DNA from: Anaerolineae bacterium CG2_30_57_67
GTDB lineage: Bacteria; Chloroflexota; Anaerolineae; Anaerolineales; Villigracilaceae
Length of the DNA: 41,614 nt
Direction: 5' to 3'
NCBI GenBank assembly: GCA_001872455.1
Contig: MNXJ01000016.1
Location: 1 to 41,614, forward strand
In this document: one piece after another, positions 6,801 through 38,176 of the stretch
How positions within the stretch are numbered: the stretch's first letter is position 1
Layout: each line of letters starts with the position of its first letter
Program-made: the position numbers and the translations under genes
Notes under the pieces: generated by a model
What the model saw: the letters and a program-made list of their open reading frames with translations, nothing else
Database searches by the model: none
Told to the model about the DNA's origin: nothing

Positions 6801-7473
6801 TGCCCACCGAAATATTGAAATTGGTGATGGCGTGTTCGCTGGTTTTGGACGTGATGAATTCTTCCACATCCGGGTGATCCACGCGCAAAACGCCCATATT
6901 CGCGCCGCGGCGCGTTCCTCCCTGAGCGATCTCACCGAAAGCGTTATCGTACACCCGCAGGAAACCCACCGGGCCGGTGGCCTGCCCGGCGGACGATTTG
7001 ACCAGCCCACCCTTGGGGCGCAGGCGCGAGAAGGAGAATCCATTGCCGCCGCCGGTTTGCTGAATCAGCGCGGCGTTGCGCAGCGACTGGAAGATTCCGG
7101 CTTCGTCGCGCCCCATGTCATCGGAGATGGGCAGCACAAAGCAGGCGGCCAACTGCCCCAGCGGCGTGCCCGCCCCGGTAAACGTCGGCGAGTTGGGGAA
7201 GAATTTCTTGCTGGTCAGCAGCGCGTAAAATTCACGGGTGCGCGCCGTCACGTCACTGTGCCAGGCCTGCTCCACGTTGGCAACATGCCAGGAAACGCGC
7301 CAAAACATTTCTTCGACGGTTTCTGCCGGTTTGCCATCATCGCCGCGGCGGACGTAACGGCGCAGCAATACCTGGCGCGCATTGTCGGTCAACTCGACTT
7401 GCGGCAAATCCGCGGGCAGGGACGGGGTGGGCAGCAAAACATTTTTTTGACCAGCAACTACTTGAGATTCCAT
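3808..7473 (-). CDS. nrdJ: Adenosylcobalamin-dependent (class II) ribonucleotide reductase with intein
   Basis: Reduces ribonucleotides to deoxyribonucleotides using a cobalamin-generated thiyl radical. The 1221-aa precursor includes a 364-residue intein (residues 319-682); the spliced enzyme would have 857 residues. Extein landmarks: LAACF (about 108-112) with the first redox Cys, the glycine-rich [12 protein letters not shown], the active-site NPCGE split by the intein (NP at 317-318, CGE from 683), and [18 protein letters not shown] with the second redox Cys. Near the C-terminus are a TSCPD-like domain ([12 protein letters not shown] onward) and a zinc-ribbon tail with CPECG and CRKCYACG, as in the NrdJ subgroup with a zinc tail. 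Start ATG 7473 has AGGAGAG upstream. It lies 27 bp after nrdR, so the two form an operon, probably controlled by the NrdR boxes near 8000. Confidence 0.96.
5428..6519 (-). other. Mini-exon-splitting intein with LAGLIDADG endonuclease in NrdJ
   Basis: Protein-splicing element, 364 residues. It begins with Cys ([10 protein letters not shown], block A), has block [10 protein letters not shown] with the conserved His, two dodecapeptide LAGLIDADG-type motifs (GWLVGDGT near 431-438 and ALFTADGS near 531-538), and ends in VANGLVVHN. The His-Asn end is followed by Cys+1 of the host. The boundaries were checked at the codon level: the Cys1 codon is 6517-6519 and the last Asn codon is 5428-5430. The host residue at +1 is the Cys of NPCGE, the presumed thiyl-radical cysteine, so the enzyme cannot work before splicing. 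The endonuclease motifs look intact, so homing may still be possible. Confidence 0.95.
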
Positions 7474-14517: not shown

Positions 14518-15023
14518 TCAGCGGGGACGCGGTCGAGGTTGCGCTCACCGCGCAAGTAGGCCAGCGCCATTTGCAGGGCTTGTTCGGCAGAAGCGGCCTT
14601 GTTGGCCTCGCGGTCGGCGTTGGAAAAGACAAAAAGCCGCGCCCACAAACCAGCGGGTGCGGCCAGGCCGATCCAGGTGGTGCCAACGGGTTTGTTGGGC
14701 ATTCCTCCGCCCGGCCCGGCAATGCCGCTGACCGAAACGGCCAGGTCTGCGCCCAACGCCAGGCGCGCGCCTGCGGCCATCTCCAACACTGTTTGGCGGC
14801 TGACCGCGCCATGCTGATGCAAAGTGTTCCACGAGACGCCCAGCAGGCCGACCTTGGCTTCGTAGGCATAGGCAACGATGCCGCCGCGATAATAATCGGA
14901 CGAGCCGACAACGTTGGTGATGCGATGACCAATCAGCCCGCCGGTGCAAGATTCGGCGGTGGCAAATTGAAGCGCCTGACGGCGCAGAAGTTCTCCAAGT
15001 AACACTTCGGGTAAAGCGGTCAC
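14514..15023 (-). CDS. CinA C-terminal domain protein (NMN deamidase type)
   Basis: A 169-aa protein matching the PncC/CinA C-terminal domain, which deamidates nicotinamide mononucleotide in the pyridine nucleotide cycle. Conserved stretches: [15 protein letters not shown] and [11 protein letters not shown], plus the VGTTWIGLA strand. The N-terminal molybdopterin-binding-like domain of full CinA is absent, as in PncC. I placed the start at GTG 15023, with AGGAG just upstream; the GTGA overlaps the stop of the cyclase gene. A longer frame from 15080 would run through that gene. Confidence 0.9.
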
Positions 15024-18000: not shown

Positions 18001-18178
18001 AAATCATGCGGCGCTGTTGGGTTGTAGACGGTGTGGAGGCAGGATTCGCCGCCATTTGCAAGGCGGCGAGACGCTCGCGCAGGGGCGTCAACGTGGCGGC
18101 GAGAACATCATCGCCAAGGGTGGCTCGCTGTGTTTCGAGCGCCGCAATCGCTTGCGAAAGTTTCTGAATTTCGTCCAT
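15020..18178 (-). CDS. Adenylate cyclase–AAA ATPase–TPR regulator (catalytically complete copy)
   Basis: A 1052-aa multidomain protein. Residues about 55-235 form a class III nucleotidyl cyclase: metal-binding Asp65 (VFADISGYT) and Asp109 (KHMGDG), Lys105 and Asp179 (ALGDTVN) typical of ATP specificity, and Asn182/Arg186 for transition-state stabilisation. Residues about 250-520 are an AAA/STAND-type ATPase with Walker A GDAGIGKS (284-291) and Walker [13 protein letters not shown]. The C-terminal 400 residues are TPR repeats ([29 protein letters not shown]). The architecture resembles mammalian soluble adenylyl cyclase and many Chloroflexota regulators. It lies 4 nt downstream of a paralogue and overlaps the cinA gene (GTGA). 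Confidence 0.93.
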
Positions 18179-18182
18179 GGGG

Positions 18183-21100
18183 TTAGGCCAGCATGAGTTG
18201 CGTAAATGTGGCGCGCCACTCCAGCGTTGCGCCGCGCGTCATATGCTGGAGAATGAATTCATCGTCCAGATGCCATTCGGCCAGCATTTGTTCTTTCAGC
18301 CGTTGATGGTCAATGCTATAAGCCGGGTGTTTTTCGGCCAGGCCGAGCAGTTCAAGCGCGCGCGTGGTATTTCCGCGCGCGGCTTCGAGCCGCGCAAAAA
18401 AGATGACGGCCATCAACATCCACGGGCCCGCGCCGAGGTGGTCTGAAAGCGCCAGTCCCTCGCGCAGATGCTCACAAGCGCGGTCAAGGTCGCCCATGCG
18501 CACCAGGCAGTGACCAAGATTAAGCAGGTAAAGCGCCAGCGACTGTTGCGTCCCAATTTCACGCGCCAACTGCATGGCTTGCCGGTAGTATTGCTGTGAT
18601 TTTTGCAAGTCGTTGTGCTCATCCGCCAGCGCGCCCAGGTTGTTGAGCGCAATCGCGGCGCGTTCGCGGTCTCCGGCGGCAGTGGCGCGGGTCAGCACTT
18701 CCTGGTACAAACGTTCTTCTTCGGCGGGGTTGCCCATCAACCCGGCCAAAACGCCCAAGCGGTTGAGCGCCAGCAAAAAAGTGTAGACATCGCCAGCTTG
18801 CGCGGCCATATCGCGGCTTTCACTGCAATGCTGATGAGCGCTTTCCACCTTGCCCAGCCGCCATTCAGTGTTTCCCAAGCCATAAAGCAGGCGCGCACGG
18901 ACGACGCTCCCGCTTTGCGCCTGCGTCAGACGCAGGGCTTCGCCCAAAAGCGCTTCGGCGGCGGGATAGTCGCCCATTTCACCGTAAATTTGTCCAACCT
19001 GATACATGGCCGAAGCCAGCAGGTCGCCCACGCTCAACTCACGCGCGGCCTGCAAAGCCTGTTCCGAATACTTGAGCGCATCGGCGTATTCACCGGAGCG
19101 AAAAAAGACCTCACTAATTTTGAGTTGAACAAAAATCACATCGCGGCGGCGCTCGGGAGCAAGCAGGGAAAGCGCACGCTGAAACAGGCGAAACGCTTCA
19201 GAAAAGGCGCTAACACTGAGGGCTTGTTCGCCCGCCTCGCGCAGCGCCAGAGAAGCGCGGTCATTTTCCCCGGCTTTTTCGTAATGGTCGGCGATCACCG
19301 ATAGATATTCAGAGCGGCGCTGTCCGCTGGCTTGCTGAAGCCATTCAGCAATCAGGGCATGGTACTGCGCGCGCTGACGTTTAAGCACCGTTTCGTAGGT
19401 GACATCGCGCAAGATGGCGTGCTTGAAGGCAAATTCCTGCGTGCCAGAAAAGGTGGAAATGGGATTGGGAAAAATCAGTTCTTTGGCGCGTAAGGCCGCC
19501 AGCGAAATATTGAGACTCTGACTCTCGTTCTCCGGCACTGGCGTGAGGACTTCCAACGCCTGCTGCCAGAAAACGCGTCCGATGACGGAAGCACGCTGAA
19601 GCGAGACGCGCTCCTGCCCGTCGAGGGTGTCGAGGCGCGCTTGCAGGACTCCGGCCAGGGTGGGGGGAATGCTGAGGGCGTCGAGGCGTCTCAGGTCTAC
19701 GCTCCAAATATCAGCATTGGGCTGAATCACACGCCCATCAATCAGCATTTTGACGAGTTCTTCCAAATAAAACGGGTTACCTTCCGCGCCGACGACAATC
19801 AGCTCGCGCAAGGCGGAGGGCAGCGCCTGCACTTTTTGCAAAATCTCTTGCACCAGAGCGCGGCTTTGTTCACGCGAGAGTGGGCGCAGGTAAACATGTG
19901 CGGCGCGTTTGAGCGAATCGCGCCAGTCGGGCAGGCGTTCGTCCAGTTCTGGGCGGGTGATGCAAACAGCCAGCAGGGGCGTTTGGGCGGGCAGGTTATT
20001 GAAAACGTAACGCAGAGCGTCGAGCGAAGCGCTATCCGCCCAGTGAATGTCGTCGAGCAGTAAAATAACCGGGTAGACACTCGCGGCGGCGGCAAAAAAG
20101 CGCGTCAGGCTGACAAAACCCAGGCTGCGCATTTGGTGCGGGTCGGCCAGCAGGGCGGGCAAGAAAGGGCTTTCGGCAAAGTTAAAACCAATCAACTGCC
20201 CAACGATATGCGCTTTTTCGCGCGAGTTGGGATCGCCAGGCATCATCTGGGCAAAACCGCGCTCCATTTTGGCAATGACGGTTATAAGCGGATCGCTATC
20301 CTGAATTTGGAAACGGAAAAGGAAGAGTTCGCGCAGGAAAGCATAGGGCGAGGTGATTTGCGAAGGGGCTGAACGCGCCTGAAAGAGGAAGTAATCTTCA
20401 CTACGCGGGTCGGTCCAGGTCAGAAATTCGGCAAGCAGGCGGCTCTTGCCCAACCCCATTTCGCCGGTGATGGTCACAATCTGCGGCTGACGCCTGGAGA
20501 ATAAATCGAGGTAGGCCTGTTGCAGGCTGTTCAATTCATTCTCCCGGCCAACCAGATGGGTTTCAACGCCTTCGACGCCGCGCGAGAGGATGTAAAAAGC
20601 GCGCGGTTTGGCGCACTGAATGAGGTAGCACTGCACCAGTTCGCTTTTGCCTTTGACCTGCAGGGGCGGGAGCAGTTCAATATCAAAAATTCCGCGCACC
20701 AGGCGGTAGGTATCGTAAGTAATCATGATTTGGTCAGGTGTAGCGGCCTGATTGAGACGGGCGGCCAGGTTGACGGTATCGCCCAATGCGGTCAATTCGG
20801 CGGTCGTGCCGACGCGCCCAACGATGACTGCGCCCGTGTTGATGCCCACGCGCAGACTGAGCGCTTCCCCGGCCAGCAAGGGCGTACTGGAACAGAACTC
20901 GTTGCAGGCAACTTTCATTGCCAGCGCGGCGTGAATGGCCTGTTCCGGATCATCTTCTTCAACCGTTTCAGCGCCCCATAAGGCCATCACGCCAGCGCCC
21001 ATGTGCTTGTCAATGCGCCCGCCGTGCGCCAGAATGACGGCATCAAGCCGCTCCCAAAGCGCATTGACGGTATCGCGCAAGTCTTCGGCGTCTACGCGCT

Positions 21101-21308
21101 CGGTGAAAGCGGCCAGACCGGGCAGGTCAGCAAAGAGAACGGTGGCAATTTTCCGGTGCTGTTCCATATCCCCCGCCGAGCGCAACATAACCGCCCGTTC
21201 GCGCAACGGCGTCAGCGCCGAATCTACCACCGCATCCCCCAGCAAAGGACGATTCTCTTCGAGGGCGCTGATGGCTTGTTCCAGTTTTGAAATTTCGCTG
21301 AGGGTCAT
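18183..21308 (-). CDS. Adenylate cyclase–AAA ATPase–TPR paralogue lacking one metal-binding Asp
   Basis: A 1041-aa paralogue of the next gene with the same domain order: cyclase about 50-235, ATPase with Walker A GEMGLGKS (282-289) and Walker B VILLLDDIHWAD, then TPRs. Asp61 is kept, as are Lys101, Asp177, Asn180 and Arg184. The second metal Asp, however, is Ala105 (KHMGAG, codon GCT at 20994-20996; GAT expected). The cyclase may therefore be inactive alone and serve as the regulatory half of a heterodimer. The pair would correspond to the C1/C2 arrangement of soluble adenylyl cyclase (inference). The start ATG 21308 has no Shine-Dalgarno and lies 9 nt after a TAAAAT box. Confidence 0.9.
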   Translation of the reverse strand: MTLSEISKLEQAISALEENRPLLGDAVVDSALTPLRERAVMLRSAGDMEQHRKIATVLFADLPGLAAFTERVDAEDLRDTVNALWERLDAVILAHGGRIDKHMGAGVMALWGAETVEEDDPEQAIHAALAMKVACNEFCSSTPLLAGEALSLRVGINTGAVIVGRVGTTAELTALGDTVNLAARLNQAATPDQIMITYDTYRLVRGIFDIELLPPLQVKGKSELVQCYLIQCAKPRAFYILSRGVEGVETHLVGRENELNSLQQAYLDLFSRRQPQIVTITGEMGLGKSRLLAEFLTWTDPRSEDYFLFQARSAPSQITSPYAFLRELFLFRFQIQDSDPLITVIAKMERGFAQMMPGDPNSREKAHIVGQLIGFNFAESPFLPALLADPHQMRSLGFVSLTRFFAAAASVYPVILLLDDIHWADSASLDALRYVFNNLPAQTPLLAVCITRPELDERLPDWRDSLKRAAHVYLRPLSREQSRALVQEILQKVQALPSALRELIVVGAEGNPFYLEELVKMLIDGRVIQPNADIWSVDLRRLDALSIPPTLAGVLQARLDTLDGQERVSLQRASVIGRVFWQQALEVLTPVPENESQSLNISLAALRAKELIFPNPISTFSGTQEFAFKHAILRDVTYETVLKRQRAQYHALIAEWLQQASGQRRSEYLSVIADHYEKAGENDRASLALREAGEQALSVSAFSEAFRLFQRALSLLAPERRRDVIFVQLKISEVFFRSGEYADALKYSEQALQAARELSVGDLLASAMYQVGQIYGEMGDYPAAEALLGEALRLTQAQSGSVVRARLLYGLGNTEWRLGKVESAHQHCSESRDMAAQAGDVYTFLLALNRLGVLAGLMGNPAEEERLYQEVLTRATAAGDRERAAIALNNLGALADEHNDLQKSQQYYRQAMQLAREIGTQQSLALYLLNLGHCLVRMGDLDRACEHLREGLALSDHLGAGPWMLMAVIFFARLEAARGNTTRALELLGLAEKHPAYSIDHQRLKEQMLAEWHLDDEFILQHMTRGATLEWRATFTQLMLA

Positions 21309-26661: not shown

Positions 26662-26668
26662 ATTCTTC
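26612..26668 (-). pseudogene. ABC-transporter ATPase fragment (Walker A region)
   Basis: One minus-strand frame reads LKNLSFHVDAGEHIAIVGPSG, split here only by context: it is the strand leading into the Walker A of an ABC ATPase, cut off before GKS/T. Before it is an in-frame stop, after it the antisense of the glycosyltransferase gene. About 19 residues remain. It overlaps the 3' end of the plus-strand gene and the start of the P450 fragment. Confidence 0.55.
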
Positions 26669-27145
26669 AATCAGGTGTTGGAGTAAATCGGGTTTCAGGT
26701 GCGAGGTATCAGGTGTCGGGTTGGCGGCGCGGCGGGTGGAGATGATGGCGCAGAGGTAGTCGCCGAGCGTTTGCAGGTGTTTTTTGTAGCCGGGGCGGGG
26801 AATTTTTCGCCAGAGAATCCACGCGCCGGGCGAGATATAGGCGATGGCTTTCAGAATGGGCGTCCAGATGCGCGGCAGGTCATCCCAGGCATCCACGCCA
26901 AAGAGCGTATCCATAATTTTGCGGGCTTCGACGAGCATACGTTCTGCCAGGTGTTGGCAACACGGCGGGTGTGGCGCAGAATCAGGTCTTGGTAGGCGGA
27001 CAAGGCAACGGGGCGCAGAGAGGGTTCCACCAGTGCGCGGTAGTGGTCGTCCGGCCATCACTTTCAGCGGGCCAAGCGGCGATTTTTCGTTGAGGAACGC
27101 AATCAGCGTGGCCAGCCCCAAGCCGGGAGTGACTTTTTCGTTCAT
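26662..27145 (-). pseudogene. Cytochrome P450 fragment, truncated and frameshifted
   Basis: Three frame segments together read like the first half of a cytochrome P450. Segment 1 starts at ATG 27145 (overlapping the stop of the glycosylase gene) and includes LGPLKVMAG. After a shift near 27050, segment 2 reads DDHYRALVEPSLRPVALSAY, as in the P450 C-helix region. After a second shift near 26940, segment 3 has RMLVEARKIMDTLFGVD and later STRRA … DLLQHLI. The N-terminal 60-70 residues, the I-helix, ExxR and the heme-binding Cys are missing. It cannot be functional as shown. P450s in carotenoid clusters are often hydroxylases, but the role here is inference. The family call is by motif pattern only. 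Confidence 0.55.
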
Positions 27146-27576
27146 GTTTTGCGCCGTTCCCAGGTTTCCACTTCGCCGGGAATTACCGTCAGCAGCGGGT
27201 GGGGCTGAAGGCCGTTGGTCGGCGCGTTGGGTTGATGGCGCTGTGGGTCGCGTGTCAGTAATTTCTGTTGCAGATGCTGCCACTCGTAGCGCAGTTGGCC
27301 CTCCGTCACGGTCATTTTTGCAGCGGGGACTGTCAAATCCAGTTTTCCCGCGTCAAAGTGATAGCCGCGCCGCGCCGCCTCCTGGTAGATTTCTGCCAAA
27401 TAGGCGTTAATGGCGGCGATGGGTTCGGCCTGCGCCTTGAAACGCGCCAGCTGCGGGTGATTTTGATAGCCGCGCGTTTTGCCTTGCAACACGGCTTTCG
27501 CCAGCAGTCCCTCGCGCCAGACTGCGGTCAGGCCTTTGGTATCGAGGTAGGCGGGGTGTAGACTCCATAGGCGCAT
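27142..27576 (-). CDS. Pyrimidine-dimer DNA glycosylase (endonuclease V-like)
   Basis: A 144-aa protein of the Pyr_excise/T4 endonuclease V type, which cleaves the glycosyl bond at UV-induced cyclobutane dimers. Recognisable blocks are MRLWSLHPAYLDTKGL, AVWREGLLAKAVLQGKTRG and YQNHPQLARF, followed by a RGYHFD turn. The C-terminal extension (about 100-144) is Gln/Pro-rich and less conserved. It is downstream of the DICT and carotenoid genes on the same strand, which suggests induction together with light-protective functions. Start ATG 27576; its TGA overlaps the ATG of the P450 fragment. Confidence 0.82.
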   Translation of the reverse strand: MRLWSLHPAYLDTKGLTAVWREGLLAKAVLQGKTRGYQNHPQLARFKAQAEPIAAINAYLAEIYQEAARRGYHFDAGKLDLTVPAAKMTVTEGQLRYEWQHLQQKLLTRDPQRHQPNAPTNGLQPHPLLTVIPGEVETWERRKT

Positions 27577-27597: not shown

Positions 27598-28044
27598 TTA
27601 CTTTAGAAATTCCGGCAAAATGGGTTCGCCAATCTGTTGGGGAAACAGTTTGTGCATAACCGTCAGCACTTTGAAGGCAAAATTGGGGTCGAAGGTGTAA
27701 AAGCCCTCGTACATGCGCGGCTCGCCGGGCAGGCGGTCGGTGGGACTGATTTCCTCTGCCAGCAGAGTCATGTGAATGCCCGGCCCGTAGGCGATGACAA
27801 ACCAGTAGCGCTCCAGCGGCGTGCCGCTGGTATCCACGCTGATGGTGCGCGCAAAATTAGGCAGGGGCGCATCCGGCACACCGTAGAGCCACAGGTTGGT
27901 GGAAGCCTGCGCCACGCGCGTATAGCGTTCAGCCTGGTTGGTCACACGCGAGAAATATTGGAAGGAAACGTGTGTTTCCGACACACCGGGGCTGATGATG
28001 ATGGCATCTTCAATCATGTGGCTGATTTCAACCATGCCGTTCAC
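27598..28044 (-). CDS. Stand-alone DICT-like sensory domain protein
   Basis: A 148-aa protein whose core (SHMIED, SFQYFSRV … RYTRVAQ, LWLYGVPDA, PLERYWFVIAYGPG) follows the DICT sensory-domain pattern, also present in the cyclase two genes upstream (SHSIEE, FAGFQRF, VYIFGEAD, PLTAEWFILF). It has no output domain. Start is taken as GTG 28044; an internal ATG at 28035 is possible. It follows the CrtI-like gene by 9 nt. Two DICT proteins in one operon suggest a shared signal or a heteromeric sensor (inference). Confidence 0.68.
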   Translation of the reverse strand: MNGMVEISHMIEDAIIISPGVSETHVSFQYFSRVTNQAERYTRVAQASTNLWLYGVPDAPLPNFARTISVDTSGTPLERYWFVIAYGPGIHMTLLAEEISPTDRLPGEPRMYEGFYTFDPNFAFKVLTVMHKLFPQQIGEPILPEFLK

Positions 28045-28053
28045 CGTTTTTTT

Positions 28054-29508
28054 TCACCTTTTTTTTTGCCCATTGACCAGCCCCGCCACCCGCATGGCGC
28101 CCAGCGTCACACCGGCGGTGGATTGACCGGGAAAAATACTATCGCCCACAAGCCATAAATTTCGCAAGCCCGTCTGCGGGCCGCGCGCGGAAAACAGAGA
28201 AGTTTGTGGAAATCCGCCCACCATGCCCTGCGGACGGTGGGTGTAAAACGCATACGTTCGCGGCGCGCCGGGCAGAATCAGTTCGGCGGCGGCGCGAAAA
28301 CCGGGCAGAGCGCGCTCGGCAGCGGTCAATACCTTTTGCGCGTAGGCCGCCTTGCGCTCCTGGTAGGCAGTTTCGCTCAGCCCCTGCCAGTCGCGGATGC
28401 GCGTGTGGGTCGAGAGAATCGCAGCGCGCATTCCCGCCGGAGCGCGCGAGGCATCGTCGAGCGGCGAAAGCGAGATGAACACGGAATTGCCCTCGCCCAG
28501 CGGTTGATTCACATCCACAATCACCTGATGATGGGTGATGGGATGGGAGATTTTCTCCGCCCGAACTCCGGCGTGGATGACGAAAGCGCCCCACATGGCT
28601 GCACGGGAGCGCGTCTCCCGCTGCAGGCTGCCCGGCGCGGCTTCGCCGAGCAGCGTTTCCAACGCCCAGGGGGTGACGTTGGCGAGGAAGCAATCAGCCT
28701 CGAAGCGCATTTCCTTCGCCGTCAGCGCTGCCTGCGCCGCGCCGTTGACCGTTTCCAGGCCGGTCACCCGCTGACGGTACTCGACCTGGCCGCCGTTGGC
28801 GCGAATCCAATTGACCAGGGTTTCGGCAATCGCGCCCATGCCGCCGCGCACATGCATCACGCCCCGCCGCGGCAAATCCAGCACGGACGCGCCGTAGAGC
28901 GCATCGGCCTGGTCGCTGATGGCTTGCGCCGAAATCAGCAGGCTGCCATCCACAAAAGCTTTGAACTCCGGGGTCGTCTCGCGCGGCAGCAGATGCCGAA
29001 TTTTGCGAAAAAGATATGGCGCAGCGGCCAGAGTCTCTGGGCGCAGGGCCAGCGGCAGGCGGGCGACCTCGCCGAGGGTGACGGGCGGCCAGGGAAAATC
29101 GCGGGCCGAAAGTTCCCAGGCGATTTTGGCGAATTGTTCCTGCTTTTGCCAGAAGCGCGCCGAAAACGGGAAGTGGGTCTGGTACTCTGCGCGCCAGCGG
29201 GCCGGGTCCACCCATTGATGGATGGTCTGCTCGGGCAAATGTGTCGCCCAGGCGGCATCGTGGATGGGCGTCACCGGCCATTGCAGGCCGAGAATTTCGG
29301 CGACGCGGGTGTGCGGCCCGGCGGGGTCGAATCCGCCTGCCAGCGTGGCACCCGCGTCAAAGCGGTAGCCTTTGTGGGTGAAGGTTCCGGCGCAGCCGCC
29401 GGGGTAAGTCCCGGCTTCGAGAACGGTGACTTGCCAGCCTCGTTTGAGCAAGAGCGCAGCGGCGGTCAACCCGCCCATTCCCGCGCCGATGATGACAGCG
29501 CGAGACAT
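28054..29508 (-). CDS. CrtI/CRTISO-like phytoene desaturase or carotenoid isomerase
   Basis: A 484-aa FAD-dependent oxidoreductase of the carotenoid desaturase/isomerase group. N-terminal dinucleotide fold: AVIIGAGMGGLTAAALLLKRG, then EAGTYPGGCAGTF and GYRFDAGATL. The C-terminal flavin-contact region is LWLVGDSIFPGQSTAGVTLG. Such enzymes dehydrogenate or isomerise lycopene precursors; desaturase versus isomerase cannot be settled here. Its start codon overlaps the stop of the cyclase gene (TAATG). Phytoene synthase lies 8 kb away on the divergent strand, under the same presumed regulator. Confidence 0.85.
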   Translation of the reverse strand: MSRAVIIGAGMGGLTAAALLLKRGWQVTVLEAGTYPGGCAGTFTHKGYRFDAGATLAGGFDPAGPHTRVAEILGLQWPVTPIHDAAWATHLPEQTIHQWVDPARWRAEYQTHFPFSARFWQKQEQFAKIAWELSARDFPWPPVTLGEVARLPLALRPETLAAAPYLFRKIRHLLPRETTPEFKAFVDGSLLISAQAISDQADALYGASVLDLPRRGVMHVRGGMGAIAETLVNWIRANGGQVEYRQRVTGLETVNGAAQAALTAKEMRFEADCFLANVTPWALETLLGEAAPGSLQRETRSRAAMWGAFVIHAGVRAEKISHPITHHQVIVDVNQPLGEGNSVFISLSPLDDASRAPAGMRAAILSTHTRIRDWQGLSETAYQERKAAYAQKVLTAAERALPGFRAAAELILPGAPRTYAFYTHRPQGMVGGFPQTSLFSARGPQTGLRNLWLVGDSIFPGQSTAGVTLGAMRVAGLVNGQKKR

Positions 29509-30851
29509 TATTTCACCTGCTCAGCGTTTGACGAGTCCTGGCTGTTTTTGATTTCAAAATCTCCCAGGGCAGCAAACTCGGCGCTGTACATGCGCTGATA
29601 GCCTTTGCCCTTGATTTGTGTTTCGCGCCCATGCCATTGCGTTGGTCTGCCAACGGCGCGATAGGTGGCCTCATCCAAACTGAAGCCATTGACGGGAGAT
29701 TGGGCTTGCAGTCGGCTGGCAAAATTGACTGCATCGCCGATGATGGTAATTTCGCGCCGTGAGACAGAACCCAGGCGGGCAACCATGCACGGGCCAGTGG
29801 CAATGCCAATGCGGGTGTTGAGTTGAAGGCCCAGGTGGGCAATTTGTTGCTGGTTGAAGAGCGCCAGACGGCGCTGCATGGAAATCGCGGCGCTGACCGC
29901 GTTTTGTGGCTCGTTGAAAAAAGCCATCAAGCCATCGCCCAAAAATTTGTCAATATCGCCGTTGTGTTCGTAAATGGCGGTTGCCAGCAGGTCGAAGTAG
30001 CGATTGAGATTTTGGGTGAGCAGCGCCGGGTCGCCTTGCTCAAACAATGGGGTGAACTCTTTGATGTCGGTGAACAAGATGGTCAACTGTCGGCGTTCCG
30101 GCGCGAAGGTATCATTTTGCTCATTTTCGGCAATATTTAGCGTATCGTCCCAGGCTTTGCGCGAAACCAGCGTGCGCACCAGGGCTTCCATGCGTTCCAG
30201 GGCGGCGGTTCGGTCTTGCAGGTTGCCGTACAGGGCGTTCAATTGGGTTTGCGTGCGGTCCATGTACCCGGCAAATTGATTGAGATAGGTGTTGACCGGC
30301 AGGGTAGCTTCCAGCGGCGCGGGCGTAAAGGGCGGTTCGTCCAGCCCCAGCGCCTGATGCAAAAGCCGCGTCGCTGGTTGGACGAGGTGGTCTTCCAGCG
30401 CGACCATGCCCTGATAGAGCCTGCCGCGCCCGAAACGGCTCTCGCGCACCGAGGTTGTCAGGTGGCCGATTTCGCGCGTCAGCAGGGCAATCTCAAAGCG
30501 TGGATGCGCAAACAGAATGAACCACTCCGCTGTCAGCGGCGCGCCCGGCTGCAGGGCAACGTAGTCCAGGTTGGCAATCGCCGGAGTGGCGCTGTCGGCC
30601 TCGCCGAAAATGTACACTTTTTTGCAGCGCGAGGCCAGCAGCCGAAAGCGGTTGGCCTGCGGCAGGAAGGCCGAAAATCGCTGGAATCCCGCAAAAAAGA
30701 TGGCATCCAGCCCATGCCGCATGACAGTTTCTTCGATGCTGTGACTGACCGCCAGCAATGAAGCCACCGAAGACGTGCGCGTGGCGCTCATTTCGGTCTG
30801 ACGGGTGGCGTTCAGCGTGTAGAGCGAGAGGGTCTGGATGTTGGGCAGCAT
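29508..30851 (-). CDS. DICT-domain class III adenylate cyclase
   Basis: A 447-aa signalling enzyme. Residues about 30-150 form a DICT sensory domain (SHSIEETVMRHG, FFAGFQRF, KKVYIFGEAD, APLTAEWFILF), followed by a helical linker with a heptad-like region (about 195-245) and a class III cyclase (about 250-420). Cyclase residues are complete: Asp262 (FTDIKEFT), Asp306 with Lys302 (DKFLGDG), and the IIGDAVNFASR block with Asp, Asn and Arg. It should make cAMP, assuming the Lys/Asp pair sets specificity. It sits inside the B12-regulator/carotenoid operon, 3 nt after the MFS gene and overlapping the CrtI-like gene. DICT domains are often found in light-associated proteins; the ligand is unknown. 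Confidence 0.88.
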   Translation of the reverse strand: MLPNIQTLSLYTLNATRQTEMSATRTSSVASLLAVSHSIEETVMRHGLDAIFFAGFQRFSAFLPQANRFRLLASRCKKVYIFGEADSATPAIANLDYVALQPGAPLTAEWFILFAHPRFEIALLTREIGHLTTSVRESRFGRGRLYQGMVALEDHLVQPATRLLHQALGLDEPPFTPAPLEATLPVNTYLNQFAGYMDRTQTQLNALYGNLQDRTAALERMEALVRTLVSRKAWDDTLNIAENEQNDTFAPERRQLTILFTDIKEFTPLFEQGDPALLTQNLNRYFDLLATAIYEHNGDIDKFLGDGLMAFFNEPQNAVSAAISMQRRLALFNQQQIAHLGLQLNTRIGIATGPCMVARLGSVSRREITIIGDAVNFASRLQAQSPVNGFSLDEATYRAVGRPTQWHGRETQIKGKGYQRMYSAEFAALGDFEIKNSQDSSNAEQVK

Positions 30852-30854
30852 GGG

Positions 30855-32129
30855 TTAGTGGGAAACGTTGGTGGCAGGAACAGAGCTTTTGGCCCGAATT
30901 TCTGCCGCAATCGGATGGTCGTAAATGACACGCCAGACGTAGACACTCAGCGCGGTTAAAACCACTGCGCCAAACGCGCCCGGCGTCCACGCGCCCACGC
31001 TTTGCAGCAGCACGCCGCCCAAAATGGGGGCCACGATGCGGGTGGAACTTTCAATGGAGGCCGAAAAGCCCAAAATACCGCCAATTTCTTGCGGCTGTAC
31101 TGCCTTGGTCAGCGTGGAGGAAAGCAGGGTGTTCAGCACGCCGCCCGAAATGGCGGTGGGCGTCAGCACCACAATCAGCCAGAAGACGCTCGGGGCCAGC
31201 GCCCAGCCCAGCAGCGCAAACGCCATGACAATTACTGAGATGGTAATCAGCACATCTTCGCGGTAGGCTTTGGTCAGGAGGCCAATCAGAAAACCTTGCA
31301 CAAAAACCGACAGCACGCCGACATAGGTCAGCACAAAACCGGTGTCGCGCGCGGTCAGTTGAAATTTTTGCAGGGCGTAGGCGGCGAACATGGTTTGGAA
31401 AATGGCAAACGCCAACCCAAAGAAGAAGCGGGTAATCAGCAAAGAGCCGCTGAACGGGCGCTGGAGCGCTTTCAGCAGCGCGTCGAGCGTCACCGGCGCG
31501 CGTTTATCGGGCATTTCGGCGCGTTTTTCGGCGGTCAGCGATTCGGGCAGCCAGAAGTAAATCAACAGCAGGTTGATGAAGGAGAGCGCCGATGCGGCGA
31601 AAGCCGGGACGGCGTAGCCCCACTGACTGAGCAGGCCGCCGGTGGCCGGGCCGATGATGAAGCCCAGCCCGAAGGCGGCGCCAATCAGGCCGAGGCCTTT
31701 GGAGCGGCTCTGGACGTCGGTCACATCGGAGATGTAGGCTTGCGCCACGGACAGGTTGCCGCCGGTCAGGCCGTCAATGATGCGGCTGAGGAAGAGAATC
31801 GCCAGCACGAACAGGTTGGCGCTTTGTGGGCTGAAACTTTTTGCCAGCGCGTTGCCGATGGGGTCGGCCAGACCCAGCAAGACGAAGCCCAAAAACGTTC
31901 CGCCAACCGAGGCCAGCAGAATCGGGCGGCGGCCAAAACGGTCTGAGAGCCGCCCCAACAGCGGCGCGCCAATCAATTGCATGGCGGCGTAAGAAGCCAC
32001 CAGCAGGCCGACCACCAGTTGGGTAGCGCCGTATTTTTCGGCGTAGTAGGGCAGCAGCGGCAAAATCAGGCTGAAGCCGAGCAGGTCAATAAAGACCACA
32101 AAAATAACGGAGAAGAGACGCTTGTTCAT
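30855..32129 (-). CDS. MFS efflux transporter (TetA-like)
   Basis: A 424-aa transporter with 12 hydrophobic segments. The loop 2-3 signature GRLSDRFGRRPILLAS (about residues 58-73) is the drug:H+ antiporter motif A, and IDLLGFSLILPLLPYY in the first segment is typical of the TetA/DHA1 type. Substrate unknown; it sits in the light-response operon. Confidence 0.9.
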   Translation of the reverse strand: MNKRLFSVIFVVFIDLLGFSLILPLLPYYAEKYGATQLVVGLLVASYAAMQLIGAPLLGRLSDRFGRRPILLASVGGTFLGFVLLGLADPIGNALAKSFSPQSANLFVLAILFLSRIIDGLTGGNLSVAQAYISDVTDVQSRSKGLGLIGAAFGLGFIIGPATGGLLSQWGYAVPAFAASALSFINLLLIYFWLPESLTAEKRAEMPDKRAPVTLDALLKALQRPFSGSLLITRFFFGLAFAIFQTMFAAYALQKFQLTARDTGFVLTYVGVLSVFVQGFLIGLLTKAYREDVLITISVIVMAFALLGWALAPSVFWLIVVLTPTAISGGVLNTLLSSTLTKAVQPQEIGGILGFSASIESSTRIVAPILGGVLLQSVGAWTPGAFGAVVLTALSVYVWRVIYDHPIAAEIRAKSSVPATNVSH

Positions 32130-32136
32130 ATTTTTT

Positions 32137-32173
32137 AGTTTTCCAGTTTTTCAGTTTTCCGGTTGTCCGGTTA
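32137..32173 (+). repeat. CCAGTTTTTCAG-type low-complexity repeat
   Basis: A pyrimidine-rich stretch with repeated (T)CCAGTT / CCGGTT units between the MFS and Rieske genes. It is related to 34549-34571. Confidence 0.4.
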
Positions 32174-32537
32174 GATTGTGACGAAAACGTCTTCGCCTTC
32201 CAGGCTGACGAGGTAGGTATGGATGGGAGCCGGTTTTTTGCCCATGGCCACCATGCGGCGTGTCCATTCAGGTAATTTGGCCCCGGCGAAACTGGTGACC
32301 CAATCGAGGTTTTCGCCGGTGCACATGTCAAATTTGCTGCCGTGAAACGGGCAGGTGATAACGTTGCCGTCAATTTTTCCGGAGCCAATGGGCAGCCCCC
32401 AGGTGCGGACAGTGGTTTTCAACCGCGCAGAAGCCGGTTTCGGTGCGGTTGACGACAATCGCTGTGCCGCCGGCGCGGACAATACGGACTTTGCCCATTT
32501 GGAATTCATGGATTTTTCCGATGTTGATTTTGTTCAT
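32171..32537 (-). pseudogene. Rieske [2Fe-2S] ferredoxin-like gene with frameshift
   Basis: From ATG 32537 the frame reads MNKINIGKIHEFQMGKVR and reaches HCPHLG, then shifts at a G5 run on the coding strand (plus-strand C5 at 32396-32400). With one G removed, it continues LPIGSGKIDGN … TCPFHGSKFD and ends at 32171, giving a protein of about 121 aa. Both cluster motifs, CPHLG and CPFHG (CxH and CxxH), would then be present. This is an intact-looking small Rieske protein apart from the single-base indel. It would carry electrons, possibly for an oxygenase or the P450, but no reductase is visible. Confidence 0.75.
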
Positions 32538-32576: not shown

Positions 32577-32906
32577 TTATTCGGCGTGCTTTCCCAGCCA
32601 GAATTTGCGCCAGTCGCCGCCGCTGATTTGCAGCGTCAAAAAGGCGTACAGGCTGCCAGCGAAGAAGCCGAGCGTCATCATGGCAATCGTCCACAAGATG
32701 GCGACGGGCAGCGATTTTTCACGGTAAATAATCCAGCCAGAGAAGAGCGTGAAGCCGGTGTACAAATCCACCAGCGAGACGATGCCCCAGGGCATGGCAA
32801 TCAGTTTGCCGCCTTCAGCGAAAAAATCACCCTGAGTGAAGGCGAAGATGAGAATGGCGGTCATGGCAAGTGTGCCAAGCGCGGCGATGGTTTTGGCGAG
32901 TTTCAT
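32577..32906 (-). CDS. DUF1475-like small membrane protein
   Basis: A 109-aa protein with three hydrophobic segments and the DUF1475-like phrase SGWIIYREKSLPVAILW. Function unknown. It follows the DUF1295 gene by 3 nt, so it is in the same operon. Confidence 0.7.
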   Translation of the reverse strand: MKLAKTIAALGTLAMTAILIFAFTQGDFFAEGGKLIAMPWGIVSLVDLYTGFTLFSGWIIYREKSLPVAILWTIAMMTLGFFAGSLYAFLTLQISGGDWRKFWLGKHAE

Positions 32907-32909
32907 GGG

Positions 32910-33701
32910 TTAGTCCTTTTTGCGCGGAAGCAAGCGCGGGAAAAAATCGGGTGTGTTAGCGATATATTCAGCGTAGCCGGGTTTGGTCGCTTTGAGAGTT
33001 TTTTCAAGCAGGGCCACGCCGGAGACTTTCATCAGCAGAAAGGTCATAATCAGCGGGCTGAAAATGCTCCACCAGCCGCCGGCGGCGAGGGCGATGAGAT
33101 AGAATCCCCACCATTGAGCGGCGTCGCCGAAGTAGTTGGGGTGACGGGTGCGCCCCCAGAATCCGGTGAAAAGTAATTTACCTTTGTTGGCCGGGTTGGA
33201 TTTGAATTGCGCCAACTGATAGTCGCCACCGGCTTCAAAAGCGAAACCTATCAGCCAGAACAAGGCTCCGAGAAAATCTAGCCCGTTCAGGGCCGGGTTG
33301 GCGCCGCCGGTTTGAGCCGCCAGAAGCGGAATGGCAATGATCCACATCAACACGCCTTGCAGGAAGAAAACCTTAAAAAAACTGCGCCACCACCAGGCCG
33401 CACCCGCTTCCTGTCGCCATTTAGCATAGCGAAAATCTTCGGGATGGCCGGCGTTGCGCTGGAGAATGTAGAGCGAAAGCCGCAGACCCCAAAGGCTGAC
33501 GATGATGCCCAGCAAAATCATCCGCGCCGAAAACCCGCCGGGGACGAGCCAGGTGCCAGCCCAAAAGGTGATGACAAAGCCCGTTCCCCAGAAAATATCA
33601 ACGATGCTGGCGTTTTTTAGCGCCAGGCTGATCAGCCACAGAGCAATCATTAGGCCGAGAATAATCAGGCCAGTGTTGAGCCAGAGTGTGAGAAATGACA
33701 T
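32910..33701 (-). CDS. DUF1295 (steroid 5-alpha-reductase/isoprenylcysteine methyltransferase-like) membrane protein
   Basis: A 263-aa polytopic protein. The C-terminal signature (TGFWGRTRHPNYFGDAAQWWGFY) spans two helices and is typical of DUF1295, related to 3-oxo-5-alpha-steroid 4-dehydrogenases and ICMT-like enzymes. A reductase or methyltransferase acting on a lipid or isoprenoid is plausible because of the carotenoid context, but this is inference. Confidence 0.85.
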   Translation of the reverse strand: MSFLTLWLNTGLIILGLMIALWLISLALKNASIVDIFWGTGFVITFWAGTWLVPGGFSARMILLGIIVSLWGLRLSLYILQRNAGHPEDFRYAKWRQEAGAAWWWRSFFKVFFLQGVLMWIIAIPLLAAQTGGANPALNGLDFLGALFWLIGFAFEAGGDYQLAQFKSNPANKGKLLFTGFWGRTRHPNYFGDAAQWWGFYLIALAAGGWWSIFSPLIMTFLLMKVSGVALLEKTLKATKPGYAEYIANTPDFFPRLLPRKKD

Positions 33702-33704
33702 GGG

Positions 33705-34542
33705 TTACTCCTTAGAGATGCAGGCAAAACCGAGCGCGCCAATACCCAGGTGCGCGCCCAGTACCGGCGTGATTTGTACTACTGGAATGGCGTCATTCGG
33801 CCAATAGGCGCGAACAGTTTCAAGCATAGCGGCGGCTTCTCCTGGAATGCCGGCATGGACGATGGCGAGACGTTCAAACGGAGCGTATTGCTCCAACCAA
33901 GCCAGCAGTTGCGCGGTGGCATTTTTTTGCGTGCGGGCGCGCTGAACGACGGGCTTTGCCCATGTGCATGTGCAACAGCGGCTTGATTTTGAGAAATTCA
34001 CCGATGTGCGCCACGGCGCTATTCATGCGTCCACTTCGACGCAAGTATTCAAGCGTTTTGAGCGCAGCAAAGACGTAACTGCGCTGCATTTGCCCGGTCA
34101 GCGCCGCTACAATTTGGGACATGGAATTGCCCGATGCGGCCAGTTGGGCTGCTTTTTCCACCAAAAAGCCCGTTCCGAGGCTAAGTTGGGTCGAATCCAG
34201 AACATAAACCGGAAAGCGGGAAAACTGTTTGGCGGCAACCCGCGCGTCGTTGACGGTGGCGCTCAGGCTTTCAGCAATGTGGATGGAGAGAATCTCTGTC
34301 GCGCCCTCATCGGCCAGACGCTGATAGAGTTGTTGCAAGGCGTGCGGATTGGGCGATGCCGTTTTCGGAAAGGGGTTCAGGTCTGGCAGTTGGCGATAGA
34401 ATTCCTCGCGCGAAAGGTCTACACCATCCAGATAGGCCTTGTCTCCGATGTGGATGTTGAGCGGCATAACGGCAATGCCTAACTCGCGGATGGTTTCAAC
34501 GGGTAAATCACAGGTGCTGTCAGTAACGATGCGGATGGTCAT
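33705..34542 (-). pseudogene. DegV-family fatty-acid-binding protein gene with a frameshift
   Basis: From ATG 34542: TDSTCDLPVETIRELGI, PKTASPNPHALQQLY and SIHIAESLS, all DegV features of the N-terminal lobe. The frame then breaks near 33957-33965, where a single-base change turns HMHMGKA into a nonsense tail. In the neighbouring frame the sequence continues KPVVQRARTQKNATAQLLAW … VVQITPVLGAHLGIGALG to 33705. The restored product is about 279 aa, the usual DegV length. DegV proteins bind fatty acids for fatty acid kinase; no kinase gene is here. Indel or assembly error. Confidence 0.8.
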
Positions 34543-34577: not shown

Positions 34578-35591
34578 TTACTGTTTGCGACCAACTGACG
34601 ACGGGTTACTTGCCACTGTATTTCTTCGGTCTGCAATCCAAATGCCAATGGCAATCAGCCCAGCGATGGCGAAGGCCACCAGGTATTCGATCAATGGAAT
34701 GCGGATGATTTCGTTCAATTGGCCCCAGCCGCGGCTACTGTAAATGGTCAGTACGGCGGCGATGTAGCCCAGGCCGACCAGCCAGCGGGTCAGTCTGCTC
34801 CAGCCCAGGCCGTGCATCTGCGAGATGACGAACATACCGCCAAATCCGAAGGCAAACATCGGCCAAATGCCGTTGCCCTGCGAGACGGCGACAAGTGTGC
34901 CGTGGAAAAGGACGGTCACTTCCTGAAACACCGTCCAGGCTTTATTGACGTGGATGCGCGTCAGAAACAGACTGCCTTGCAGCATCAGCAAAAACATGTA
35001 AAAGAAACCGACCAAATGGCCGAAAGGATTGACCATCGGATGAAACCAGAAGGTGTAGACCACGGCCCAGGCAAACAGGTAGCCGTGATATTTGCGGGCA
35101 AAGTCCATCACCCGTTTGGAGAGCGGCGCTTTGGCGCCGAAGAACATGCCGCGCCGTTTATTTTCCATGATGAGAATGACGCACAGCATCAAAATCACCG
35201 AGCCTTGCGAACTCCAGACCGGGGTATCCTGCGCCAGCCCGTCGTACCACAGATGACTTTGGACAAAGTGCAAAAGGATAAATCCGGCATTCACGCCCAG
35301 CGCCCAAAGATTGACCGGGTGCAGGCCGGTGGCATATTTTTGCACGCGGGTTTGGGCGTAATAAATCAGACTCCACAGCGCAATCTGATGCAGGGCGTAA
35401 AAACTCCAGGCGGTCAAATGCGTCATAAAAGTTGGGTTGGGCAGTTTCCAGTAGTACCACAGCGCGCCCTGGTCGGGCAGTAGCGGTACGGCATTCAACC
35501 GTTCACCGGCCAGCCAAATCAGCGCGGTGAAAGCCAGTGAGAAGGCAATTCCGCCCCACAGGGCAATTTGTAAAGAACGGGGATTTTCCAT
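34578..35591 (-). CDS. Polytopic membrane protein of unknown function in the light-response operon
   Basis: A 337-aa protein with about nine hydrophobic helices. Histidines occur in or next to the membrane segments (…FYALHQIALW, FILLHFVQSHLW, FWFHPMVNPFGHLVG), a pattern that could bind heme or quinones, but no known family is recognised. It follows the MerR-B12 gene by 16 nt, and its own reading frame is intact. Possible roles include a carotenoid-modifying or electron-transfer membrane protein; this is a guess. Confidence 0.8.
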   Translation of the reverse strand: MENPRSLQIALWGGIAFSLAFTALIWLAGERLNAVPLLPDQGALWYYWKLPNPTFMTHLTAWSFYALHQIALWSLIYYAQTRVQKYATGLHPVNLWALGVNAGFILLHFVQSHLWYDGLAQDTPVWSSQGSVILMLCVILIMENKRRGMFFGAKAPLSKRVMDFARKYHGYLFAWAVVYTFWFHPMVNPFGHLVGFFYMFLLMLQGSLFLTRIHVNKAWTVFQEVTVLFHGTLVAVSQGNGIWPMFAFGFGGMFVISQMHGLGWSRLTRWLVGLGYIAAVLTIYSSRGWGQLNEIIRIPLIEYLVAFAIAGLIAIGIWIADRRNTVASNPSSVGRKQ

Positions 35592-35607: not shown

Positions 35608-36927
35608 TTACGGCTGGACGTTTGCCATCCACGCTAATAATAAATTTGCGTCGTCGCCCATGTGCCAGCGGATGGCGGTGGCGTAGGCTTTGACGTAATC
35701 GCTGACGACTTGCTCTTGCAAATGATTAGATTGTAGCATGACGCGCAGCCAATCCATCTCGCCGTCCATGTAGTGCAGGTCGCCCAATTGTAGCGCGGCG
35801 ATGATGTTGTTGCCAAAAAATTTGTGCGCCGTGGCAAAATACTCCGGGTTGAGGCCCGTCGGCAGCAATTGTTCGTTGATGGTCGTCTCAATCAGCCCGC
35901 GCTTGAGCAGGTAAACCTTCAGCGCGGCAAAATTTTCGGTGGACGTGGGCGCAATCGGCGGGGTGACGGCGCGTTCCACCAGCAGTTCCTCCACCGTTTC
36001 CAGCGCCGATTCGAGCGTATCGCCCAGGTAAAAGCCGGGGATGCGGGATTTTAGTTCCGGCACCAGGTGAAAAATTCGTCCGCCGTAGGCGATTTTCGCG
36101 TCGCGCGCGCTGAGCATCAACGCTGCTTGCTGGAGTGTGGCGGCGGTGAAGAGTTGCTGCGCCGAGAGCAAAATCAGATGCGGCTGAATGGCGGTCAGCG
36201 TTTCCTCGAAGCGGTTGGCCGGGACGTTGGCACCCAGGTAGATGATGTTGATGCCGCGCCGCCGCAAAAAGAGCGTCAGCAGCATGCTTGTGAAGGTGTG
36301 CGATTCTTCGGCCGGGCAGCCGACGATGATGGTGGCGGTGCGCGTCGGCGTCGGCGCCGATGCGATGAGTGCGCTCAGGCGGCGCATCACCAGCCCGGAA
36401 GCGAAATGTTCCTGCTGAACGCTGGCGCGATTTTCGTACCACAGGGTGCCAATTTCGCTCACGCCGCGCGCCAGCAGCTGCGTGCAAACGGTTTCGAGCG
36501 AGTACAGGCCAAAGGCCTGATTGAGGGTTTGTTCGGCGGCGCTTTCGTTGTAGTTGAGGCAGGCCGCCAGCCATCGAGCCCGCAGTCCATCCAGACCGGT
36601 CTCTGGCGGAAAATAAATCGTTTCGGCGATGGGGGTTTGCGCGGCAGCCGTGCGGGCGGGCGTCACGATTGCGAACGGGTCGCGCCCCTGAGCGGTCACT
36701 GCCCGCCACAGGTCCACCGCGCGCGAGATACTCAATCCCTCGCGCTGACGGGCTGTCAGCCATTTGAGCGTGGTGATGTCATCATGTGAGTACAGCCGAT
36801 GACCGCCGGGGGTGCGCTGTGGGGCTGGCAGTCCGTAACGCCGCTCCCATGCGCGCAGTGTGTCTGCGCCGAGCCCGGTTTCTTGCAGGACGGCTTTCAG
36901 GTTGTAAGCAGGAGTTTGTGAAGGCAT
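35608..36927 (-). CDS. MerR-family B12-dependent photoreceptor regulator (CarH/LitR type) with C-terminal extension
   Basis: A 439-aa transcription factor. Residues 8-75 are a MerR winged-helix domain (LRAWERRYGLPAPQRTPGGH). The four-helix cap has the Wx9EH adenosyl-site motif (W163, E173, H174 in WYENRASVQQEHF). The Rossmann-type cobalamin domain follows, with His210 in ESHTFT as the probable lower axial ligand (canonical ExHxxG has Gly where Thr is here). In this family adenosylcobalamin keeps the repressor tetrameric in the dark, and light breaks the Co-C bond. Residues from about 325 on (KVYLLKRGLIE … WHMGDDANLLLAW) are extra to CarH proteins of about 285-300 aa. It is divergent from crtB, so it most likely represses both transcripts. 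Confidence 0.92.
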   Translation of the reverse strand: MPSQTPAYNLKAVLQETGLGADTLRAWERRYGLPAPQRTPGGHRLYSHDDITTLKWLTARQREGLSISRAVDLWRAVTAQGRDPFAIVTPARTAAAQTPIAETIYFPPETGLDGLRARWLAACLNYNESAAEQTLNQAFGLYSLETVCTQLLARGVSEIGTLWYENRASVQQEHFASGLVMRRLSALIASAPTPTRTATIIVGCPAEESHTFTSMLLTLFLRRRGINIIYLGANVPANRFEETLTAIQPHLILLSAQQLFTAATLQQAALMLSARDAKIAYGGRIFHLVPELKSRIPGFYLGDTLESALETVEELLVERAVTPPIAPTSTENFAALKVYLLKRGLIETTINEQLLPTGLNPEYFATAHKFFGNNIIAALQLGDLHYMDGEMDWLRVMLQSNHLQEQVVSDYVKAYATAIRWHMGDDANLLLAWMANVQP

Positions 36928-37102
36928 TTTTTTCAGGGCGAAGGAAAGGAAATGAATATCGAAGGTTTATTTTCCGGTGTCCGTGACCAAGGTCAGACTG
37001 GTGATTTTCGATAGTGAAGCCGCGGCTCTGAATTCTTTCAAAATGCGCTGTGTCGTCAGTTTGGCCGAAAGCAGCACAATCGCTTTTTGCTACTTCTTGA
37101 TT

Positions 37103-37130
37103 ATTATACGTTTTGTCAATATTTTGTAAA
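37103..37130 (-). promoter_or_regulatory. Promoter of the MerR-B12 operon
   Basis: On the minus strand: TTTACA (37130 to 37125), 16-nt spacer, TATAAT (37108 to 37103). The expected start near 37096 leaves a leader of about 170 nt. The spacer contains TTGACAA, the inverse of the TTGACAA used by the crtB promoter. Confidence 0.6.
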
Positions 37131-37159
37131 GGATTATTTAAAAATCACCCGTGAAACAC

Positions 37160-37187
37160 TTGACAAAGAGAAGCGAAACCGTAAAAT
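37160..37187 (+). promoter_or_regulatory. Promoter of crtB
   Basis: TTGACA at 37160-37165, 16-nt spacer, TAAAAT at 37182-37187; transcript start expected near 37194. The -35 matches the consensus fully. Confidence 0.65.
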
Positions 37188-37211
37188 ATTATACAATACC
37201 TAGATAATATT
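37185..37211 (+). promoter_or_regulatory. Candidate operator (8-bp inverted repeat) at the crtB start
   Basis: AATATTAT (37185-37192) and ATAATATT (37204-37211) form a perfect inverted repeat with an 11-bp spacer overlapping the -10 box and start site. It could be the MerR-B12 operator; half-site TTGACAA elements at 37113-37119 and 37160-37166 are alternative candidates. Confidence 0.4.
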
Positions 37212-37234
37212 CTCATTCATTCGCGGAGTTGGTC

Positions 37235-38176
37235 ATGCAAGCATCCTGGGAAAATCATCTACTCAATCTGGCGGGCAGCATTCCCCACCCATCCACCCGT
37301 CTCGTTTTCTCCTACTGGGCGGGCGATGTGGCGCTGGAAGAGGCCTACCGCGCCTGCGGCAAAATCGCCGCGCATCACAGCAAGTCGTTCTACCTGGTTT
37401 CTGGTCTGCTTCTCGAAGAAAAACGCTCGGCCGTGCGCGCGCTTTACGCCTTCTGCCGCACGGTGGACGATATTGTGGATGAAGGTTCGGTAGTTGGCCG
37501 CGCAGCCGAGTTGGATTACTGGCGCGGCGTTTCACAGGGGATTTTCCCGCCGCACGCGAATGACCTGGTGGCGCTGGCCTGGGCTGATGCCCGCTCACGC
37601 TATCACATTCCGCCGCGTTATACCCTGCAACTGATTGACGGTGCGGCACGCGATCTTCCGCCTGCCCGCTACAAAACCTTCGACGACCTGGCAACCTACT
37701 GCTACGGCGTCGCCTCGACGGTTAGTCTGATGAGCATGTACATCGTTGGCTTTCAATCCAACGAGGCCCTGCCCTACGCCATCAAATTGGGTGTCGCCCT
37801 GCAACTGACCAACATCCTGCGCGACGTGGGAAAAGATTTCCGCAACGGGCGCATCTATCTGCCGGAAGACGAACTCAAAATCTTCGACGTCACCGAAAAA
37901 CAACTCGCGCGCGGCGAAGTCAACGACGCCTGGCGCAACTTCATGCGTTATCAAATCGCCCGCGCCCGTGCGCTCTACGCCGAAGCCGAAAAAGGCCTGC
38001 CGTACCTCGGGCGTGATGGCCAACTCGCCATCGGCGCCGCCGCCAATTTTTACCAGGGCATCCTCGAGGCCATTGAGGCCAACGACTACGATGTCTTTTC
38101 CAAACGCGCCAGTCTCACCGCCTGGGGCAAGTTAAGTCGTATTCCCGCCTTGTGGCTGAAACTTGCCGCTCTGTAA
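37235..38176 (+). CDS. crtB: Phytoene/squalene synthase
   Basis: A 313-aa enzyme condensing two geranylgeranyl-PP (or farnesyl-PP) to phytoene (or a squalene precursor). Substrate-binding Asp-rich motifs are DDIVDE (about 84-89) and DVGKDFRNGRIYLP (about 196-209); the YxFCRxVDD region is ALYAFCRTVDD. Phytoene synthase is favoured because of the CrtI-like gene and the photoreceptor regulator. Start ATG 37235 with GGAG 7 nt upstream; an in-frame TTG at 37229 is less likely. It is divergent from the MerR-B12 operon and followed by a strong terminator. Confidence 0.93.
   Translation: MQASWENHLLNLAGSIPHPSTRLVFSYWAGDVALEEAYRACGKIAAHHSKSFYLVSGLLLEEKRSAVRALYAFCRTVDDIVDEGSVVGRAAELDYWRGVSQGIFPPHANDLVALAWADARSRYHIPPRYTLQLIDGAARDLPPARYKTFDDLATYCYGVASTVSLMSMYIVGFQSNEALPYAIKLGVALQLTNILRDVGKDFRNGRIYLPEDELKIFDVTEKQLARGEVNDAWRNFMRYQIARARALYAEAEKGLPYLGRDGQLAIGAAANFYQGILEAIEANDYDVFSKRASLTAWGKLSRIPALWLKLAAL

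Follow-up and report, generated by a model that had tools for sequence, protein, structure and literature searches.

A stand-alone DICT domain protein encoded within a LitR/CarH photoprotection island of Anaerolineae, and its truncated copy in Anaerolineae bacterium CG2_30_57_67

In Pseudomonas mendocina, the small stand-alone sensor PmSB-LOV is found beside PmlR2, a LitR-family regulator of light-inducible genes, and the corresponding study reports that illuminated PmSB-LOV binds LitR and lifts its repression (PMC9758184). For another sensor domain, DICT (Pfam PF10069), a passage in PMC8612252 quotes a prediction that it acts in light response. Here we describe a stand-alone DICT protein from a 41,614-nucleotide stretch of Anaerolineae bacterium CG2_30_57_67 (contig MNXJ01000016.1; hereafter the window), in which the open reading frame (ORF) 27598-28044 on the minus strand has a GTG start and encodes 148 aa. 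Like PmSB-LOV, this protein is small, stands alone and belongs to the company of a LitR-family regulator; however, LOV carries flavin mononucleotide and a reactive cysteine, whereas DICT is without a conserved cysteine, and PmlR2 is a class II LitR, whereas the window LitR has both B12-binding domains (class I type). PF10069 is the sequence family of both DICT proteins of the window; compared with that family at large, the DICT considered here stands alone within a LitR island, where the window copy lacks the N-terminus, and in Chloroflexia it is fused to a B12-binding domain. The best explanation, to which we give middling confidence, is that the stand-alone protein of the LitR/CarH island is a non-catalytic DICT co-sensor or co-regulator of B12-based light signaling, probably impaired or in transition in the window genome.

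The 148-aa protein matches the DICT profile with 38.5 bits (cut-off 23.8, E 1.3e-9) over profile positions 26-128 of 129, and a chance resemblance to DICT was rejected on this score. The Pfam scan of this protein returned no domain other than DICT, neither a helix-turn-helix (HTH) family nor a catalytic domain, and the NCBIfam scan returned nothing above cut-off. Exactly two places in its own genome encode DICT, this protein and a DICT cyclase nearby. The first-pass annotation of this DNA had described a DICT-like domain that follows the motif order of the sensory half of the cyclase and has no output domain, a description that our results bear out, as the two proteins align by BLASTP with 24% identity over 135 columns (E 1e-11). 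Instead of the unrelated fold or hidden Markov model that it had named as a refutation, we obtained a match to the DICT model, and structure models of both DICT domains lead to the same phospholipase D (PLD)/TrmB-like structures.

One line of evidence for a role beside LitR is the gene company of the relatives. The cluster common to the 14 loci compared comprises phytoene synthase, phytoene desaturase, a MerR-B12 regulator of the LitR/CarH type, DegV, DUF1295, Rieske and major facilitator superfamily (MFS) proteins, together with a CrtD-like desaturase, DICT, photolyase, cytochrome P450, a lycopene-cyclase-like protein, UvdE and SRPBCC; the full gene set is present in no single one of them. 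Of 36 named Chloroflexota loci, 26 contain LitR, 27 photolyase, 28 CrtI/D and 22 crtB; counting only the 25 loci flanked by 5 kb or more on each side, the numbers are 21, 21, 23 and 19. None of these four genes was found in any of 20 control regions of 20 kb taken from the same contigs. Measured between tblastn matches, the distance from litR to a following DICT is 0-18 bp in 7/36 loci, and photolyase lies at most 43 bp downstream of DICT in 14/36. In the window, the regulator is encoded at 35608-36927 (minus strand) and is of the LitR/CarH class I type by its domains: Pfam identifies a MerR HTH and both the 4-helix and the Rossmann B12-binding domains, and the sequence contains Wx9EH (at 163) and ExH (at 208), which we take to be the motifs of the LitR/CarH B12 domain. 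This LitR also has a C-terminal extension past its B12 domains (residues ~320-439), which is missing in the matches from G021, G041 and G046.

The same genes co-occur at the level of whole genomes. Among 61 related genomes, LitR is encoded in 14/14 with DICT as opposed to 16/47 without it (Fisher 6e-6), and photolyase in 13/14 as opposed to 10/47 (Fisher 2e-6), values that overstate the significance because DICT was the starting point of the sampling and the genomes share ancestry; the sole DICT genome without photolyase is the window's own. This sampling is one of several points that weigh against a light-regulatory role. DICT is missing from 16 of the 30 LitR genomes, nine of which also have photolyase, so LitR works without DICT. 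No LitR match was obtained in 10/36 named loci; in six of these one flank is shorter than 5 kb, but in four (L043, L061, L062 and L063) neither is. One of the latter, L061, keeps DICT, SRPBCC and CrtD-like genes together with LitR absent within 10 kb, and this locus, together with the nine genomes that have LitR and photolyase without DICT, makes a ligand-related or metabolic role possible. None of the light genes of the island is present in L063 and L065. Most DICT proteins of Chloroflexia, whether joined to kinase, STAS or GAF domains or stand-alone, are encoded outside any such island. Finally, neither a conserved cysteine for LOV-like chemistry nor a chromophore is evident in the DICT sequences, so that DICT itself need not sense light.

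DICT is present in 27 of 251 Chloroflexota genomes. All eight long DICT frames examined in Chloroflexia (a class name assigned here from genome families) end in a LitR-type B12-binding domain with Wx9EH and ExHxxG motifs (L137:9832-11991, L138:9965-12124, L121:5545-7695, L139:4960-7107, L140:5211-7322, L141:5232-8015, L142:5043-7391 and L143:4902-7052). In these fusions DICT, accompanied by a weak GAF match, is connected to the B12 domain by a low-complexity linker, and the DICT halves of all eight are tied together by BLAST. When three fusions were scanned with Pfam, both B12 domains were above their cut-offs in all three, DICT passed in one (28.9 bits) and narrowly missed its cut-off of 23.8 in the other two (20.3 and 22.2 bits), GAF was above cut-off in one and below in two, and no HTH was found. 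In one of the eight, a HATPase_c kinase gene comes after the fusion. In other proteins (L135, L136, L121:10015-11598 and L126), DICT is followed by weak matches to CHASE6_C, a Pfam family described as extracellular, so that the domain boundary or the localization may be in question.

In terms of structure, both DICT subfamilies, the stand-alone and the cyclase-linked, are predicted from models to adopt a PLD/TrmB-like fold without the catalytic HKD motif. Foldseek returned PPK1, NucT and TrmB as the best matches to the full-length stand-alone model (E 5e-4 to 9e-4), and VIA-align gave Z scores of 11.1 for TrmB (124 residues, 2.8 Å), 10.7 for PPK1 and 9.9 for NucT. The cyclase DICT model yielded the same list of matches, with TrmB at Z 10.5 (124 residues, 3.3 Å), NucT at Z 9.9 and weaker Foldseek values (best 1.5e-3); as the alignment for the cyclase DICT took in stand-alone sequences, the two models lack full independence. 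No sequence link to solved structures was found in the PDB, where the best hits were unrelated chains (E 1.1 and 0.62). The HKD motif (HxKxxxxD) is present in 0/41 DICT sequences, and DICT may thus share the PLD fold but not be a PLD enzyme. The closest described relatives of such a fold are the effector-binding domain of TrmB (2f5t, the match with Z 11.1) and the PLD-fold pseudoenzymes of the FAM83 DUF1669 family (FAM83B 5lzk, Z 8.6), which share only 6-12% identity with DICT. TrmB regulators consist of HTH and sugar-binding domains; the stand-alone DICT protein has no HTH and thus differs from them in composition.

Taken together, we propose that the stand-alone protein would be a cytosolic, non-catalytic module of the Anaerolineae light-response island that acts in trans as co-sensor or co-regulator of LitR, the light regulator that uses adenosylcobalamin. 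It would thereby tune the expression of carotenoid and photolyase genes, its action on LitR resembling that of the short LOV protein on class II LitR in Pseudomonas; in the DICT-GAF-B12 fusions of Chloroflexia, the equivalent action would take place in cis. The domain, its gene company and co-occurrence, the fusions, the truncation and the lost genes are computational results, whereas binding of DICT to LitR, the ligand or stimulus that it would read and the direction in which it would act are inferred. A broader generalization, that DICT serves adenosylcobalamin photoreceptors as an input module with a catalytically dead PLD/TrmB fold, in trans in Anaerolineae and in cis in Chloroflexia, is put forward more tentatively, and we judge it somewhat more likely to be wrong than right. 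Literature searches found no partner or stimulus of DICT, most hits being other uses of the word, and the photocobilin paper makes no mention of it. The B12-domain fusions, the neighboring genes and the fold prediction point to concrete, testable partners for this sensor domain. If the proposal holds, B12-based light sensing would be a two-input system, in which DICT reads a second signal in addition to light, and a long-unassigned sensor domain would gain both a fold and a partner.

The window copy departs from its relatives in length. Their stand-alone DICT proteins have ~186-201 aa, so that 148 aa represents a truncated form: ~43 extra N-terminal residues are present in 35/36 named loci (including the 13 relatives compared first, all of which have this region), and in the remaining one, L064, the frame ends after 19 codons. 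The truncated protein does not contain a complete DICT domain, as profile positions 1-25 are unmatched and the relatives' residues 1-42 are absent; since the relatives themselves are unmatched at ~1-20 of the profile despite having the N-terminal region, this indicates truncation rather than another family. When the full-length protein of L032 was searched against the window with tblastn, only residues 43-191 aligned, and the window showed no trace of residues 1-42 at E 0.01. A misplaced start codon or a frameshift hiding the N-terminus was rejected, as residues 1-46 have no match in the window at the same threshold. The stop codon of the desaturase gene lies 9 nt upstream of the DICT GTG. In the full-length model, for which the predicted local distance difference test (pLDDT) is 92.4 and the predicted template modeling score (pTM) 0.89, the missing part corresponds to three helices and the first strand (residues 38-43), and the alignment with the solved TrmB domain begins at residue 36, placing this strand in the shared core.

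Erosion extends to the rest of the island. No photolyase was found in the window genome, and at the position that photolyase occupies in relatives the window encodes a light-independent pyrimidine dimer DNA glycosylase (Pyr_excise; 27142-27576, minus strand, PF03013 78 bits), a family found in 2/41 genomes searched, its own included. Adjacent to it is a broken P450 remnant in two frames (26666-27127, minus strand, detected by tblastn with a relative's P450), the only P450 match in this genome. The phytoene desaturase gene crtI is not detectable in the genome, where the sole hit of the query was a 54-residue Rossmann stretch of the CrtD-like gene; the interval 36928-37228 between LitR and crtB contains no crtI, unlike in relatives, and crtB itself is retained (37229-38176, plus strand, divergent from LitR, PF00494 259.5 bits). 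Lycopene cyclase was not found either, a weak negative since there was no positive control, although BLAST does detect the query family in the relatives' loci. The genome is 98.4% complete, and the gaps fall within one contig.

The window copy, having lost N-terminal helices and the first strand amid an eroding island, would thus be either impaired or newly adapted, and is probably impaired or in transition. It may instead be a functionless, decaying remnant, with only the full-length protein of the relatives at work, which would be compatible with a LitR-associated role in those relatives; we consider this a real but lesser possibility. The loss of residues 1-42 with the strand at 38-43, the absent photolyase and crtI and the broken P450 in a nearly complete genome point in this direction, as does the branch length of the window DICT, which is 0.15 in the tree compared with 0.014-0.062 in the three nearest relatives. 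On the other hand, all 148 codons are intact and preceded by a ribosome-binding site that appears plausible by eye, and the ratio of nonsynonymous to synonymous substitutions (dN/dS) in six window pairs is 0.07-0.16 versus 0.035-0.124 in 15 relative pairs, with dS near saturation. The remaining codons look constrained, but the same picture would be expected soon after a truncation.

Two further explanations concern the function of the stand-alone protein. According to the first, stand-alone DICT would be a sensor-subunit partner of the cyclase, forming mixed DICT dimers that tune cyclic-nucleotide output, in line with the earlier suggestion that it competes with or completes the sensor dimer. 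The cyclase (447 aa; 29508-30851, minus strand) combines DICT (PF10069 61.1 bits, residues 8-127) with a class III catalytic domain (PF00211 Guanylate_cyc 64.6 bits, residues 254-422), alike to other adenylate/guanylate cyclases with an N-terminal sensor, whereas stand-alone DICT has no such domain. Its residues D262, K302, D306, N376 and R380 are invariant in 5/5 sequences, D262 and D306 presumably serving as the metal aspartates and the other three in catalytic or transition-state roles. Placing the two DICT genes side by side was right insofar as the MFS, cyclase, desaturase and DICT genes form one tight run, with gaps of 3, -1 and 9 nt that make co-transcription likely, but the conserved company of DICT is LitR/CarH, carotenoid genes and photolyase. 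Partnership would also agree with the shared fold matches and with the presence of the stand-alone protein in 5/5 DICT-cyclase genomes of the relatives set. However, 9 of the 14 DICT-bearing genomes of that set have the stand-alone protein only, and the cyclase query matched in only 5/36 named loci, including L063, where the match is a different cyclase protein. Furthermore, a tree of 58 DICT domains separates the 37/37 stand-alone Anaerolineae proteins from the five cyclase DICTs, each group being a clade with full support and a long stem branch (1.7 and 1.2 changes per column), and the identity between the two window proteins is only 24%; a recent duplication of the cyclase sensor was rejected for this reason, and the earlier suggestion finds no support here. 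Partnership with the cyclase is accordingly quite improbable, a spare cyclase sensor is unlikely as the general function, and the protein is more likely part of light sensing than the spare half of its neighbor. The second explanation, a ligand carrier or accessory of a carotenoid/flavin adenine dinucleotide (FAD)-oxidoreductase or photolyase step that passes on an isoprenoid, flavin or deazaflavin-like compound, would fit the frequency of CrtI/D-like genes, the closely spaced photolyase, the gene trio of L061 without LitR, and a best-scoring solved fold that binds sugar. It leaves unexplained why DICT is elsewhere fused to kinase, STAS, GAF, B12 and cyclase domains, and the window keeps DICT with photolyase and crtI gone; we regard it as unlikely, if less so than the cyclase partnership.

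The remaining genes of the neighborhood, all on the minus strand, extend from DICT to LitR. The desaturase (484 aa; 28054-29508) is a CrtD-like carotenoid desaturase or FAD oxidoreductase, with an NCBIfam desat_CrtD score of 339.9 bits that is under the equivalog cut-off of 549.7. Beyond the cyclase are the MFS transporter (30855-32129, PF07690 185 bits), a Rieske [2Fe-2S] protein (32171-32509, PF00355) and a DUF1475 protein (32577-32906, PF07343 31.0 bits), the latter two also present in the relatives' clusters, followed by a DUF1295 protein (32910-33701, PF06966 236 bits), a DegV family protein (33874-34542, PF02645 207 bits) and a 337-aa protein with no Pfam match (34578-35591), found in 5/14 compared loci. 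Elsewhere, the window encodes two adjacent proteins of ~1,050 aa with Guanylate_cyc, AAA_16 and TPR domains (15020-18178 and 18183-21308), and a ribonucleotide reductase large subunit (3808-7473) with an intein carrying a LAGLIDADG domain.
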